Positions 51,889 through 55,075 of a stretch of 64,000 nt of DNA are shown piece by piece. A program made the position numbers and the translations under genes. How positions within the stretch are numbered: position 1 is the first letter of the stretch; each line of letters begins with the position of its first letter. Source of the DNA: Halorubrum distributum JCM 10118 (GTDB lineage Archaea > Halobacteriota > Halobacteria > Halobacteriales > Haloferacaceae); NCBI RefSeq assembly GCF_000337335.1, contig NZ_AOJN01000039.1:1-64000 (forward strand), read 5' to 3'. The notes beneath the pieces are model-generated. The model made no database searches, was not told the origin of the DNA, and was given only the letters and a program-made list of their open reading frames with translations.

Positions 51889-52602
51889 TCACGCGATCCG
51901 CAGGACCGCGGCCGCGAACATGGCCGCCGCGAGCGTCAGCGCCGGAGCGTCGGCGCGACGGAACGCGAGCCGCGGGAGCGTCGGGTTCCACGCGAAACAG
52001 CGGGCGACGAGCGCCGTCCCGAGGCGGTCAGCCCGAGAGAACGCCCGCGAGAGCCCGCCGACCGCGACGAGCCGCATCCGCTCGCGGCGGGAGCGTTCGG
52101 CGCCGAGACGCGCTCGGACCGCTTCGCGCGTCGCGACGAGGTCCCGTTTCAACAGGGGGAGGAACCGGAAGACGAGCGCGACGCCGACGCCGAGGAAGAC
52201 GCCCGGCCGTCCCGGAATCGTCCGCTGGAGGGCCGCGCGCGACTCGCGGACCGGGGTCGACCGCACGTACGCGGCCGCGACGACGAGCAGCAGCAGGACG
52301 CGGTAGCTCGCGAGTCCCGTCGTCGCGGCGCGCTCGACCCGAAACCACGGCGCGCCGAGCGTCGCGCCCGCGACGAGGGGGGCGAAGAGGAGGACGGGAA
52401 ACGCGACGCGGTAGCTCCACAGGTCCCGGGCGCCACCGTCGGCGGCGAGCAGGCAGCCGACGGCGACGAGCGTGAGAAGCGCGAGCCCCCGCGGCGTGGT
52501 GTACGCGTACGCGACGGCCGCGAACGCGACCTGGACGAGCAGCTTCGACCGCGGGTCGAGCCGGTGGGCGAGCGAGTCGCCGGGGACGAAGGAAAGCGTC
52601 AT
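51889..52602 (-). CDS. bioN: ECF transporter T component (BioN/CbiQ-type)
   Basis: Membrane coupling protein of 237 residues in the EcfT family: GDSLAHRLDPRSKL at the N-terminus, a cytoplasmic helical region VATREAVRARLGAERSRRERM carrying the AxR coupling motifs, and the final RADRLGTALVARCF with a second ARG-like motif. About five helices. It couples ATPase motion to the substrate protein. The gene's ATG overlaps the ATPase stop (ATGA), and BioY lies further upstream, so this is the biotin ECF transporter. Confidence 0.88.
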   Translation of the reverse strand: MTLSFVPGDSLAHRLDPRSKLLVQVAFAAVAYAYTTPRGLALLTLVAVGCLLAADGGARDLWSYRVAFPVLLFAPLVAGATLGAPWFRVERAATTGLASYRVLLLLVVAAAYVRSTPVRESRAALQRTIPGRPGVFLGVGVALVFRFLPLLKRDLVATREAVRARLGAERSRRERMRLVAVGGLSRAFSRADRLGTALVARCFAWNPTLPRLAFRRADAPALTLAAAMFAAAVLRIA

Positions 52603-53390
52603 CCGGCCGGATTTCGTAACTCGCCGCCCTCGGGAACCCGCACGTCCAGCCCGGGAAGGGACTCGACCGCCTCCTCGGGGGGCGCGTCGACCGCGACTCG
52701 CCCGTCCGCCAGCCCGACGATCCGGTCGGCGAGCGCGGCGACGTCGCGGAGATCGTGCGTGACGACGACGACGCTCGTCCCCTCGCGGTGAAGCGCCCGA
52801 AGCCGGTCGACGACCGACCGACGCGCGGGCTCGTCGAGGCCGGTGAACGGCTCGTCGAGGACGAGGTGATCCGGCTCCATCGCGAGCGCGCCCGCGATGG
52901 CGACGCGTTCCCGCTCGCCCCCGGACAGGGAGTCGACGCGCTCGCGCTCCCGGCCCGCCATGTTCACGGCCGCGAGCGCCTCGTCGACCCGCCGGTCGAT
53001 CTCCGTATGCGAGAGGCCGAGGTTCTCCGGGCCGAACGCGACGTCCGCGCCGACGGTGGCGGCGACCAGCTGGTCGCGCGGGTCCTGGAACACCATCCCG
53101 ACCGCCGAGCGCGCGGCGACGAGGTCCGCGTCGACCGGGGTCCCGTTCACCGCCACGGTCCCGGCGTCCGGCTCGACGAGGCCGTTGAACGTCCGCACGA
53201 GCGTCGTCTTCCCCGAGCCGTTCGCGCCCGCGGCGACGAGGAACTCGCCGTCGGGGACCCTGAGGGAGACGTCGTCGACCGCGACGGTAGCGGCGGTGCC
53301 GTCGGCGTCGTCGGAGTCGCCGTCCGCCCCGTTACCTCCCTCGCTCCCGGACCGACCGTACCGGCACGTGACGCCGTCGAGTTCGATCAC
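52599..53390 (-). CDS. bioM: ECF transporter ATPase (BioM/CbiO-type)
   Basis: ABC ATPase of 263 residues. Walker A GANGSGKTTLVR (about 62-73), VFQDPRDQLVA Q-loop, LSGGERERVAIAGAL signature, LVLDEPFTGLDEP Walker B and VVTHDLRD H-loop. The D-Q-L segment is characteristic of CbiO/EcfA. A short acidic insertion (SEGGNGADGDSDDADGT) sits near residue 15-30. Located between bioY and the T component gene; energises biotin uptake in the predicted ECF complex. Confidence 0.9.
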   Translation of the reverse strand: MIELDGVTCRYGRSGSEGGNGADGDSDDADGTAATVAVDDVSLRVPDGEFLVAAGANGSGKTTLVRTFNGLVEPDAGTVAVNGTPVDADLVAARSAVGMVFQDPRDQLVAATVGADVAFGPENLGLSHTEIDRRVDEALAAVNMAGRERERVDSLSGGERERVAIAGALAMEPDHLVLDEPFTGLDEPARRSVVDRLRALHREGTSVVVVTHDLRDVAALADRIVGLADGRVAVDAPPEEAVESLPGLDVRVPEGGELRNPAG

Positions 53391-53420: not shown

Positions 53421-54002
53421 TCACGTCGCGGCGATCGCGTCGGACCTGACGACGCCGACCGCGGCGGCGATCTTCAGCGCCTCGGCCGGGAGGAACGCGA
53501 CGGCGCCGACCGTGACCGCCTCGACCGGGCCGAGCGAGAGGACGAGCGCGAGGCCGGCCACGCCGAACCCGTAGATGACGACGGTGCCGAGGACCATCGC
53601 CCCGACGAGCGTCGGGAGGCCGACGCCGTCGAGGTCGCGGAGCGTCGCGCCCCGGTGGACGACCGCGCCGACGACCGCCGCGGCGACCGGGTACGACCAG
53701 AGGTAGCCGGCCGACTGGCCGACGAGGGCCCCCACGCCGGCCGACCCGCCCTCGAAGACGGGCGCGCCGAGCGCGCCGGCCGCGAGGTAGAGGACCAGCG
53801 ACGCGCCGCCCCACACCGGACCGAGGAAGATCCCCGCGAGGAAGACGCCGAGCACCTGGAGGGTCACGTCCACGGGCGAGACCGGGTTCGGGAACGTGAC
53901 GTACGCGAACGCCCCGACGAGCGCCGCGAACAGCGCGGCGCGCGCGAGGTTCGTCGCCGCCTCGTCGCCGACGAGGTCGACGGACTCCGTGTTGGTTGCC
54001 AT
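53421..54002 (-). CDS. bioY: Biotin-specific S component BioY
   Basis: Membrane protein of 193 residues, ATG at 54002. Six helices and BioY family motifs: PNPVSPVDVTLQVLGVFLAG (substrate loop), GPVWGGASLVLYLAAGALGAPVF, and QSAGYLWSYPVAAAVVGAV. It binds biotin and joins the ATPase and T component encoded downstream. A BirA-like palindrome lies 13-44 bp upstream of the start codon. The longer frame upstream to 54263 is not homologous and covers the operator. Confidence 0.92.
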   Translation of the reverse strand: MATNTESVDLVGDEAATNLARAALFAALVGAFAYVTFPNPVSPVDVTLQVLGVFLAGIFLGPVWGGASLVLYLAAGALGAPVFEGGSAGVGALVGQSAGYLWSYPVAAAVVGAVVHRGATLRDLDGVGLPTLVGAMVLGTVVIYGFGVAGLALVLSLGPVEAVTVGAVAFLPAEALKIAAAVGVVRSDAIAAT

Positions 54003-54014
54003 ACCCGAACGGAT

Positions 54015-54046
54015 TCGTAAACCCACTTCAACGTAGCGGTTTACGA
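54015..54046 (-). promoter_or_regulatory. BirA-like biotin operator upstream of bioY
   Basis: TCGTAAACC (54015-54023) and GGTTTACGA (54038-54046) form perfect 9-bp arms around a 14-bp spacer. It resembles the BirA operator family (TTGTAAACC-type arms with 14-16 bp spacer). It lies just before the bioY ATG, where binding would block transcription. BirA regulons are predicted in some archaea; a biotin-responsive BirA homologue elsewhere in the genome is implied. Confidence 0.75.
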
Positions 54047-54147
54047 GCTGGGACGCCCCGGTCGAATCCGAGTTCGAGCACCGAGAGAGCTCCTCGATAA
54101 TCCTCGGATAATAACGTTCATGCCCGCCCGGCGTCCACGACGCGAGT

Positions 54148-54363
54148 ATGCCAAAGATAAGCGTCGAGATCCCGGCGGAACTGCTCGCCGACCTCGACGA
54201 GCACGTCGGCGACGACGGGAAGTTCGTGAACCGCAGCGACGCGGTGCGCGCGTCGATCCGCAAGAACCTCGACCTGCTCGACGAGATCGACGCCCGCCAC
54301 GACCGGCTTGACGACGACGCCCCGTCGACCGCGGCCGGGTCGGCGGAGGAGACCGATGAGTAG
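54148..54363 (+). CDS. Ribbon-helix-helix (CopG-like) regulator
   Basis: Protein of 71 residues. ISVEIPAELLADLDEHV forms the beta strand and first helix; FVNRSDAVRASIRKNLDLLDE the second helix. A short acidic tail follows. The start ATG at 54148 is preceded by an AT-rich GGATAATAACG 30-45 nt upstream. Its stop overlaps the start of the queuosine-precursor transporter gene by 8 bp, so it may be the local regulator of that transporter. Confidence 0.78.
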   Translation: MPKISVEIPAELLADLDEHVGDDGKFVNRSDAVRASIRKNLDLLDEIDARHDRLDDDAPSTAAGSAEETDE

Positions 54364-55075
54364 CCGGACCGCCGGCGGTCAGGACGGTCCCTTCCGGGCC
54401 GACCCGCTGGACCGGTCGGCGGTCGCGGCGGTGGCGCTGATCACGCTGTTCACGGTCGCGCTCGCGACCGCGCAGCTCACCGCCGTGAAGGTGCTCGCGC
54501 TGCCGCTCCCGTTCGCGCTGCCGGTCGTCGGTCCGGAGATCCTGCTGCCCGGCGCCGCGCTCGCGTACGCGCTCACGTTCCTCGCGTCGGACTGCTACGC
54601 GGAGCTGTACGGCCGACGGGCGACGCAGGTGGTCGTCAACGTCGCGTTCCTCGCGAACTTCCTCGTGCTGGCGCTCGTGTGGTCGACGCTGGCGGCGCCC
54701 GGGGTCGATCCCGAGGTGTCGGCCGCCTTCCAGACCGCGCTCGGGCCGACGGGGAACATCGTCGCCGGCAGCCTGCTGGCGTACGTCGTCAGTCAGAACT
54801 GGGACGTGTTCGTCTTCCACGCGATCCGGGACCGGACCGGGGAGCGCATGCTGTGGCTCCGCAACCTCGCGTCGACGGCGACGAGCCAGGCGCTCGACAC
54901 CGTCATCTTCGTCGGCGTCGCCTTCTACGCCGCGCCGACTCTGTTCGGCGTCGGGATCGCGTTCGAACCGCCGGCGCTGCTCGCGCTCGGGCTGGGCCAG
55001 TACCTGCTGAAGCTCGCGATCGCCGTCCTCGACACGCCGGTCGTCTACCTGATCGTCGGCGCCGTCCGGAACTGA
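54356..55075 (+). CDS. Queuosine-precursor transporter family (YhhQ/DUF165-like)
   Basis: Integral membrane protein of 239 residues with about six helices. Family blocks: AQLTAVKVLALPLPFALPVVG, SDCYAELYGRRATQVVVN, AYVVSQNWDVFVFHAIRDRTG, WLRNLASTATSQALDTVIFV and LDTPVVYLIV. YhhQ-type proteins import preQ0/preQ1-like bases used for queuosine in bacteria and archaeosine in archaea. ATG at 54356 overlaps the RHH gene end. A PTPS/QueD homologue is encoded elsewhere in this window (32578). Confidence 0.85.
   Translation: MSSRTAGGQDGPFRADPLDRSAVAAVALITLFTVALATAQLTAVKVLALPLPFALPVVGPEILLPGAALAYALTFLASDCYAELYGRRATQVVVNVAFLANFLVLALVWSTLAAPGVDPEVSAAFQTALGPTGNIVAGSLLAYVVSQNWDVFVFHAIRDRTGERMLWLRNLASTATSQALDTVIFVGVAFYAAPTLFGVGIAFEPPALLALGLGQYLLKLAIAVLDTPVVYLIVGAVRN

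Follow-up and report, generated by a model that had tools for sequence, protein, structure and literature searches.

The window analyzed here, a 64,000-nucleotide stretch of Halorubrum distributum JCM 10118 (contig NZ_AOJN01000039.1), contains an inverted repeat directly upstream of bioY, the first gene of a biotin uptake operon, and we consider it very likely that this dyad serves as the operator of BirA, a biotin-protein ligase (BPL) that doubles as a repressor and whose gene lies elsewhere in this genome. The dyad reads in full TCGTAAACC CACTTCAACGTAGC GGTTTACGA (54015-54046), with perfect 9-bp arms around a 14-nt spacer, exactly as an earlier interpretation made without database searches (the sequence-only reading) had described it. 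Comparison with other haloarchaea furthermore suggests, with good but lesser confidence, that this one operator occurs in two geometries: around a TATA-like element at bioY (about -44 to -13) and straddling the transcription and translation start of a leaderless bioB mRNA (-21 to +11). A bacterial-type ligand-repressor circuit would thus have been fitted to the archaeal promoter served by TBP and TFB, with the operator being lost where BirA lost its helix-turn-helix (HTH) domain.

The published BirA consensus is TTGTAAACC-[N14/15]-GGTTTACAA, and the proposed likeness of the dyad to bacterial BirA operators is borne out in both spacing and core (PMC545781). The match extends to 16 of the 18 arm positions, the two differences being outer T-to-C and A-to-G changes that are common to most haloarchaeal sites. 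Palindromy by itself was dropped as evidence, since perfect 9-bp inverted repeats with spacers of 10-18 are not rare in the G+C-rich window (26 cases); what is informative is therefore the A+T-rich sequence together with its conservation. Within the window, the dyad is the sole match at up to 3 mismatches, where shuffled sequences lead one to expect 0.02. A scan of the 3.3-Mb genome for TCGTMAACC-N14-GGTTKACGA likewise returned the dyad as the sole site at up to 2 mismatches, while the reversed-pattern control gave none; three further sites, with 3 mismatches each, are treated as chance.

The prediction that the dyad heads a bioY-ecfA-ecfT operon held as well, with Pfam support for all three genes and with 12 nt separating the dyad from the bioY ATG, which is located at 54002 on the minus strand. 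Within Halorubrum, the dyad was found in 34 of 35 genomes (allowing up to 1 mismatch over 7-bp arms), all of which have bioY, and the sole dyad-less genome, G025, lacks this gene. In 28 aligned loci of the genus, the arms are almost invariant and the upstream flank is not conserved, and the distance to the bioY ATG, counted from the 7-bp core arms, is fixed at 14-15 nt in the loci measured. This conservation also bears on the gene diverging from bioY (54148-54363), whose product is a ribbon-helix-helix (RHH) protein. Encoded on the opposite strand at a distance of about 100 bp and able to bind DNA, this protein could itself read the dyad, controlling its own gene together with that of a Vut_1 transporter as well as bioY. 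Among the genus loci examined, only 8 have the RHH and Vut_1 neighbors beside the dyad and most have the dyad without them; the neighbors therefore do not explain it. Moreover, the dyad precedes bioB in other families and follows the HTH of BirA, as described below. Regulation by the RHH neighbor was rejected on the grounds that the dyad is conserved without it, and we regard its probability as practically negligible.

Beyond the genus, the core pattern GTMAACC-N14-GGTTKAC was present in 141 of 242 Halobacteria genomes, compared to 3 for the reversed control. When all 18 arm positions were used and as many as 2 mismatches tolerated, these numbers rose to 216 of 242 and about 20, respectively. 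The conservation before bioY in relatives on which the sequence-only reading had been staked is therefore present across both genus and class. Among the matches listed, 75 exact dyads lie outside the genus, of which 51 precede bioY, 22 precede the unrelated biotin synthase gene bioB, and 2 lie elsewhere (58 were placed before bioY or bioB by coordinates, and fetching the remaining 17 added 15 at bioY); the proposed search for the same dyad before other biotin genes has thus been answered positively. A class survey, in which the genome collection was scanned with a single BioY protein as query, a distant BioY alignment being too diverse, gave a similar picture: the 29 best-scoring newly fetched bioY loci show at most 2 departures from the 18-position consensus, except for G203 and G164 (14/18). 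Furthermore, 73 of 80 named bioY loci (from Halorubrum, Haloferax, Halobellus, Natrinema, Halorientalis, and others) score at least 15/18, a value reached by 0 of 400 shuffles, and in 62 of those 73 the G3 of the dyad is 42 or 43 nt from the start codon. Judged from these sequence comparisons, a BirA switch almost certainly extends through most haloarchaea.

A few sites in these surveys deserve separate mention. One of the two exact dyads away from biotin genes (G250; L117, 1501-1528) lies between an enoyl-CoA hydratase-like and an iron-containing redox enzyme-like gene, both named from their translations only, and is possibly due to chance. The other, in G224, has a G+C-rich spacer and may be a chance match as well. 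Finally, a metagenome bin named Bacteroidetes (L348) contains a bioY of haloarchaeal type whose dyad has an N13 spacer, and is probably contaminated.

A ligase with an N-terminal HTH, which the sequence-only reading had demanded, is indeed encoded elsewhere in the genome. This protein of 332 amino acids contains the Pfam domains HTH_11 (4-55), BPL_LplA_LipB (98-223), and BPL_C (282-327), and its domain order (N-terminal winged HTH, central BPL, and C-terminal BPL_C) is that of bifunctional Group II BirA. Its alignment with the BirA structures of E. coli and Staphylococcus aureus begins close to the N-terminus and includes the HTH region. A second match to the ligase family (on contig C35) is shorter, reads like a lipoate ligase, and has no HTH recognizable by eye. 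A biotin-dependent enzyme is represented by a biotin carboxylase (Biotin_carb_C, C55:99520-99846). Since no bioB above the family cut-off was found in this genome, it probably relies on biotin uptake.

Across Halobacteria, the dyad tracks the HTH of BirA. In a hand-assembled table from which the highly divergent ligase of G048 was excluded, the dyad is present in 72 of 79 genomes with an HTH-containing BirA and in 0 of 17 with an HTH-less ligase or no ligase. The latter comprise 5 genomes with an HTH-less BPL (G160, G205, G036, G049, and G052), 3 of which (G160, G205, and G052) retain bioY without the dyad, and 12 genomes without a ligase match (only an HTH fragment in G037), which have neither dyad nor bioY. 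Fisher tests gave p-values of 2.6e-5 when the genomes with HTH-less ligases were the comparison group and 1e-13 when all 17 genomes were; both values are indicative only, as the genomes are related, partly incomplete, and in many cases were picked for their lack of exact dyads. It should be noted that G160 and G205 (L239 and L240), where both the ligase HTH and the bioY dyad are absent, represent one genus of the same family.

Some observations weigh against control by BirA: several genomes with an HTH-containing BirA lack a clear bioY dyad (e.g., G039, G041, and G058 as well as, judged by named loci, some Halorientalis), and the dyad-less Halorubrum genome G025 keeps such a BirA with neither bioY nor a bioB above the cut-off. 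Moreover, co-occurrence together with a consensus match leaves the binding protein unproven, so that a different transcription factor co-occurring with BirA could read the dyad. However, the site conforms to the established BirA consensus, and it is gone where BirA has no HTH, even in the three genomes just mentioned in which bioY stays. We therefore leave another factor only a small chance and favor BirA.

The position of the dyad suggests how BirA could act on an archaeal promoter. Leaderless transcripts predominate in haloarchaea (72% in Haloferax), for which TTWT and CGAAA have been proposed as the TATA motif and the transcription factor B recognition element (BRE), respectively (PMC4983044). 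Transcription of bioY would accordingly start at its ATG, downstream of the dyad, and the spacer holds a TATA-like element centered at -27 from the ATG (Table 1). In an alignment of 71 haloarchaeal sites, dyad positions 16-20 are kept as TTnAA, T15, A17, A18, and T20 are invariant in 28 genus sites, and Natrinema-type sites have a spacer region of CGAAGTTTTGA or near it, with a good BRE/TATA. At bioB, an in-frame RTG start codon for the protein occupies the right end of the spacer in all 30 loci (L137-L166). Here, a BRE/TATA-like CCCGAATCTTTAT spans -38 to -26, with the operator following just downstream of this clear TATA box. The right arm of the operator falls inside codons 2-4 of haloarchaeal bioB (GTTTACGAG, encoding V-Y-E), most of these genes having an apparent GTG start.

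An inverted repeat this close to a start codon is also what one would want of an RNA element, i.e., a hairpin, attenuator, or riboswitch in a bioY leader. However, the predicted transcription start would leave the dyad outside the transcript, and changes in the arms often affect one side only (GTCAACC opposite GGTTTAC) and would disrupt an RNA stem. This explanation was rejected after an Rfam search had returned nothing beyond a chance-level match elsewhere and no terminator had been found, and we see very little prospect of it being correct. Both promoter arrangements, on the other hand, fit repression of leaderless promoters by BirA, which would follow naturally if the protein covered the bioY TATA box and the bioB start site.

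In B. subtilis, BirA binds its operator only with biotin and ATP, i.e., as biotinyl-AMP forms (PMC4016012), and the ligand dependence assumed here is carried over from such bacterial proteins; binding and repression by the haloarchaeal BirA are predicted likewise. When biotin is plentiful, BirA would make biotinyl-AMP, dimerize, and use its N-terminal winged HTH to bind both arms. At bioY, the bound protein would cover the TATA-like element in the spacer, which would prevent loading of TBP and TFB and switch off uptake through BioY, EcfA, and EcfT, while at bioB it would cover the start site. When biotin is scarce, BirA, either unliganded or busy as a ligase, would vacate the site and import would be switched on.

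The claim that a classic biotin circuit is hereby extended to archaea stands only in part. The circuit itself is supported in Halorubrum, whereas priority is weakened by the work of Rodionov, Mironov, and Gelfand from 2002 (Genome Res 12:1507), which reportedly already described BirA signals in Archaea. No haloarchaeal BirA operator was found in the open-licence literature searched. Features shared with the BirA/bioO systems of E. coli, B. subtilis, and delta-proteobacteria are the consensus, substitution by C/G at a matching position within the arms (A/C and T/G alternation), targets among the biotin genes, such as bioB, and a ligase of the HTH-BPL-BPL_C type; GTcAACC/GGTTgAC variants, for instance, are known from Geobacter and Desulfuromonas (PMC545781). 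In contrast to the bacterial systems, haloarchaeal sites mostly carry TCG/CGA rather than TTG/CAA as their outer letters, almost all of them have a 14-nt spacer, and the promoter is an apparently leaderless one of the TBP/TFB type, whose TATA element lies within the spacer at bioY and just upstream of the operator at bioB. For Natrialba magadii, a biotin-auxotrophic haloarchaeon, a comparable uptake locus of three genes, BioYMN, has been annotated as a putative biotin transporter, while the part of that account consulted here does not mention an operator or control by BirA (PMC3403918). The haloarchaeal BirA operator is thus a well-supported further case of a known operator type, and its archaeal promoter geometry may be new.

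Table 1. Location of the dyad, the associated promoter element, and surrounding genes within the window.
Feature	Coordinates	Strand	Remarks
BirA operator dyad (putative), TCGTAAACC-N14-GGTTTACGA	54015..54046	-	Arms 54015-54023 and 54038-54046; matches published BirA consensus
TATA-like element TTGAA in operator spacer	54027..54031	-	Centered 27 nt upstream of bioY ATG; predicted leaderless promoter
bioY, biotin-binding S component of energy-coupling factor (ECF) transporter	53421..54002	-	Pfam PF02632, E=1.1e-33
ecfA, transporter ATPase	52599..53390	-	Pfam PF00005 (ABC_tran)
ecfT, transmembrane coupling protein	51889..52602	-	Pfam PF02361 (CbiQ)
Ribbon-helix-helix protein gene, divergent neighbor	54148..54363	+	Pfam PF01402
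Vut_1 (YhhQ-like) transporter gene, neighbor	54356..55075	+	Pfam PF02592

The genes on the plus strand have a conserved element of their own. Upstream of the RHH gene (54148), a near-repeat, GATAATCCTCGGATAATAACGTT, is located at 54090-54115 and is kept before the RHH-Vut_1 pair in 8 of 8 genus loci compared, which makes it a candidate operator or promoter of this pair.

Taken as a whole, the sites described here provide a map of haloarchaeal vitamin control that spans the class and can be tested, in a group where defined operators of metabolite-responsive repressors are few. They show how TBP/TFB promoters lacking 5' leaders could come under the control of a bacterial ligase-repressor and its operator, and the lineages that lack both the BirA HTH and the operator represent natural experiments. 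Furthermore, the operator may supply a promoter that can be tuned with biotin in haloarchaea amenable to genetics, for example Haloferax, where bioY has the same site.
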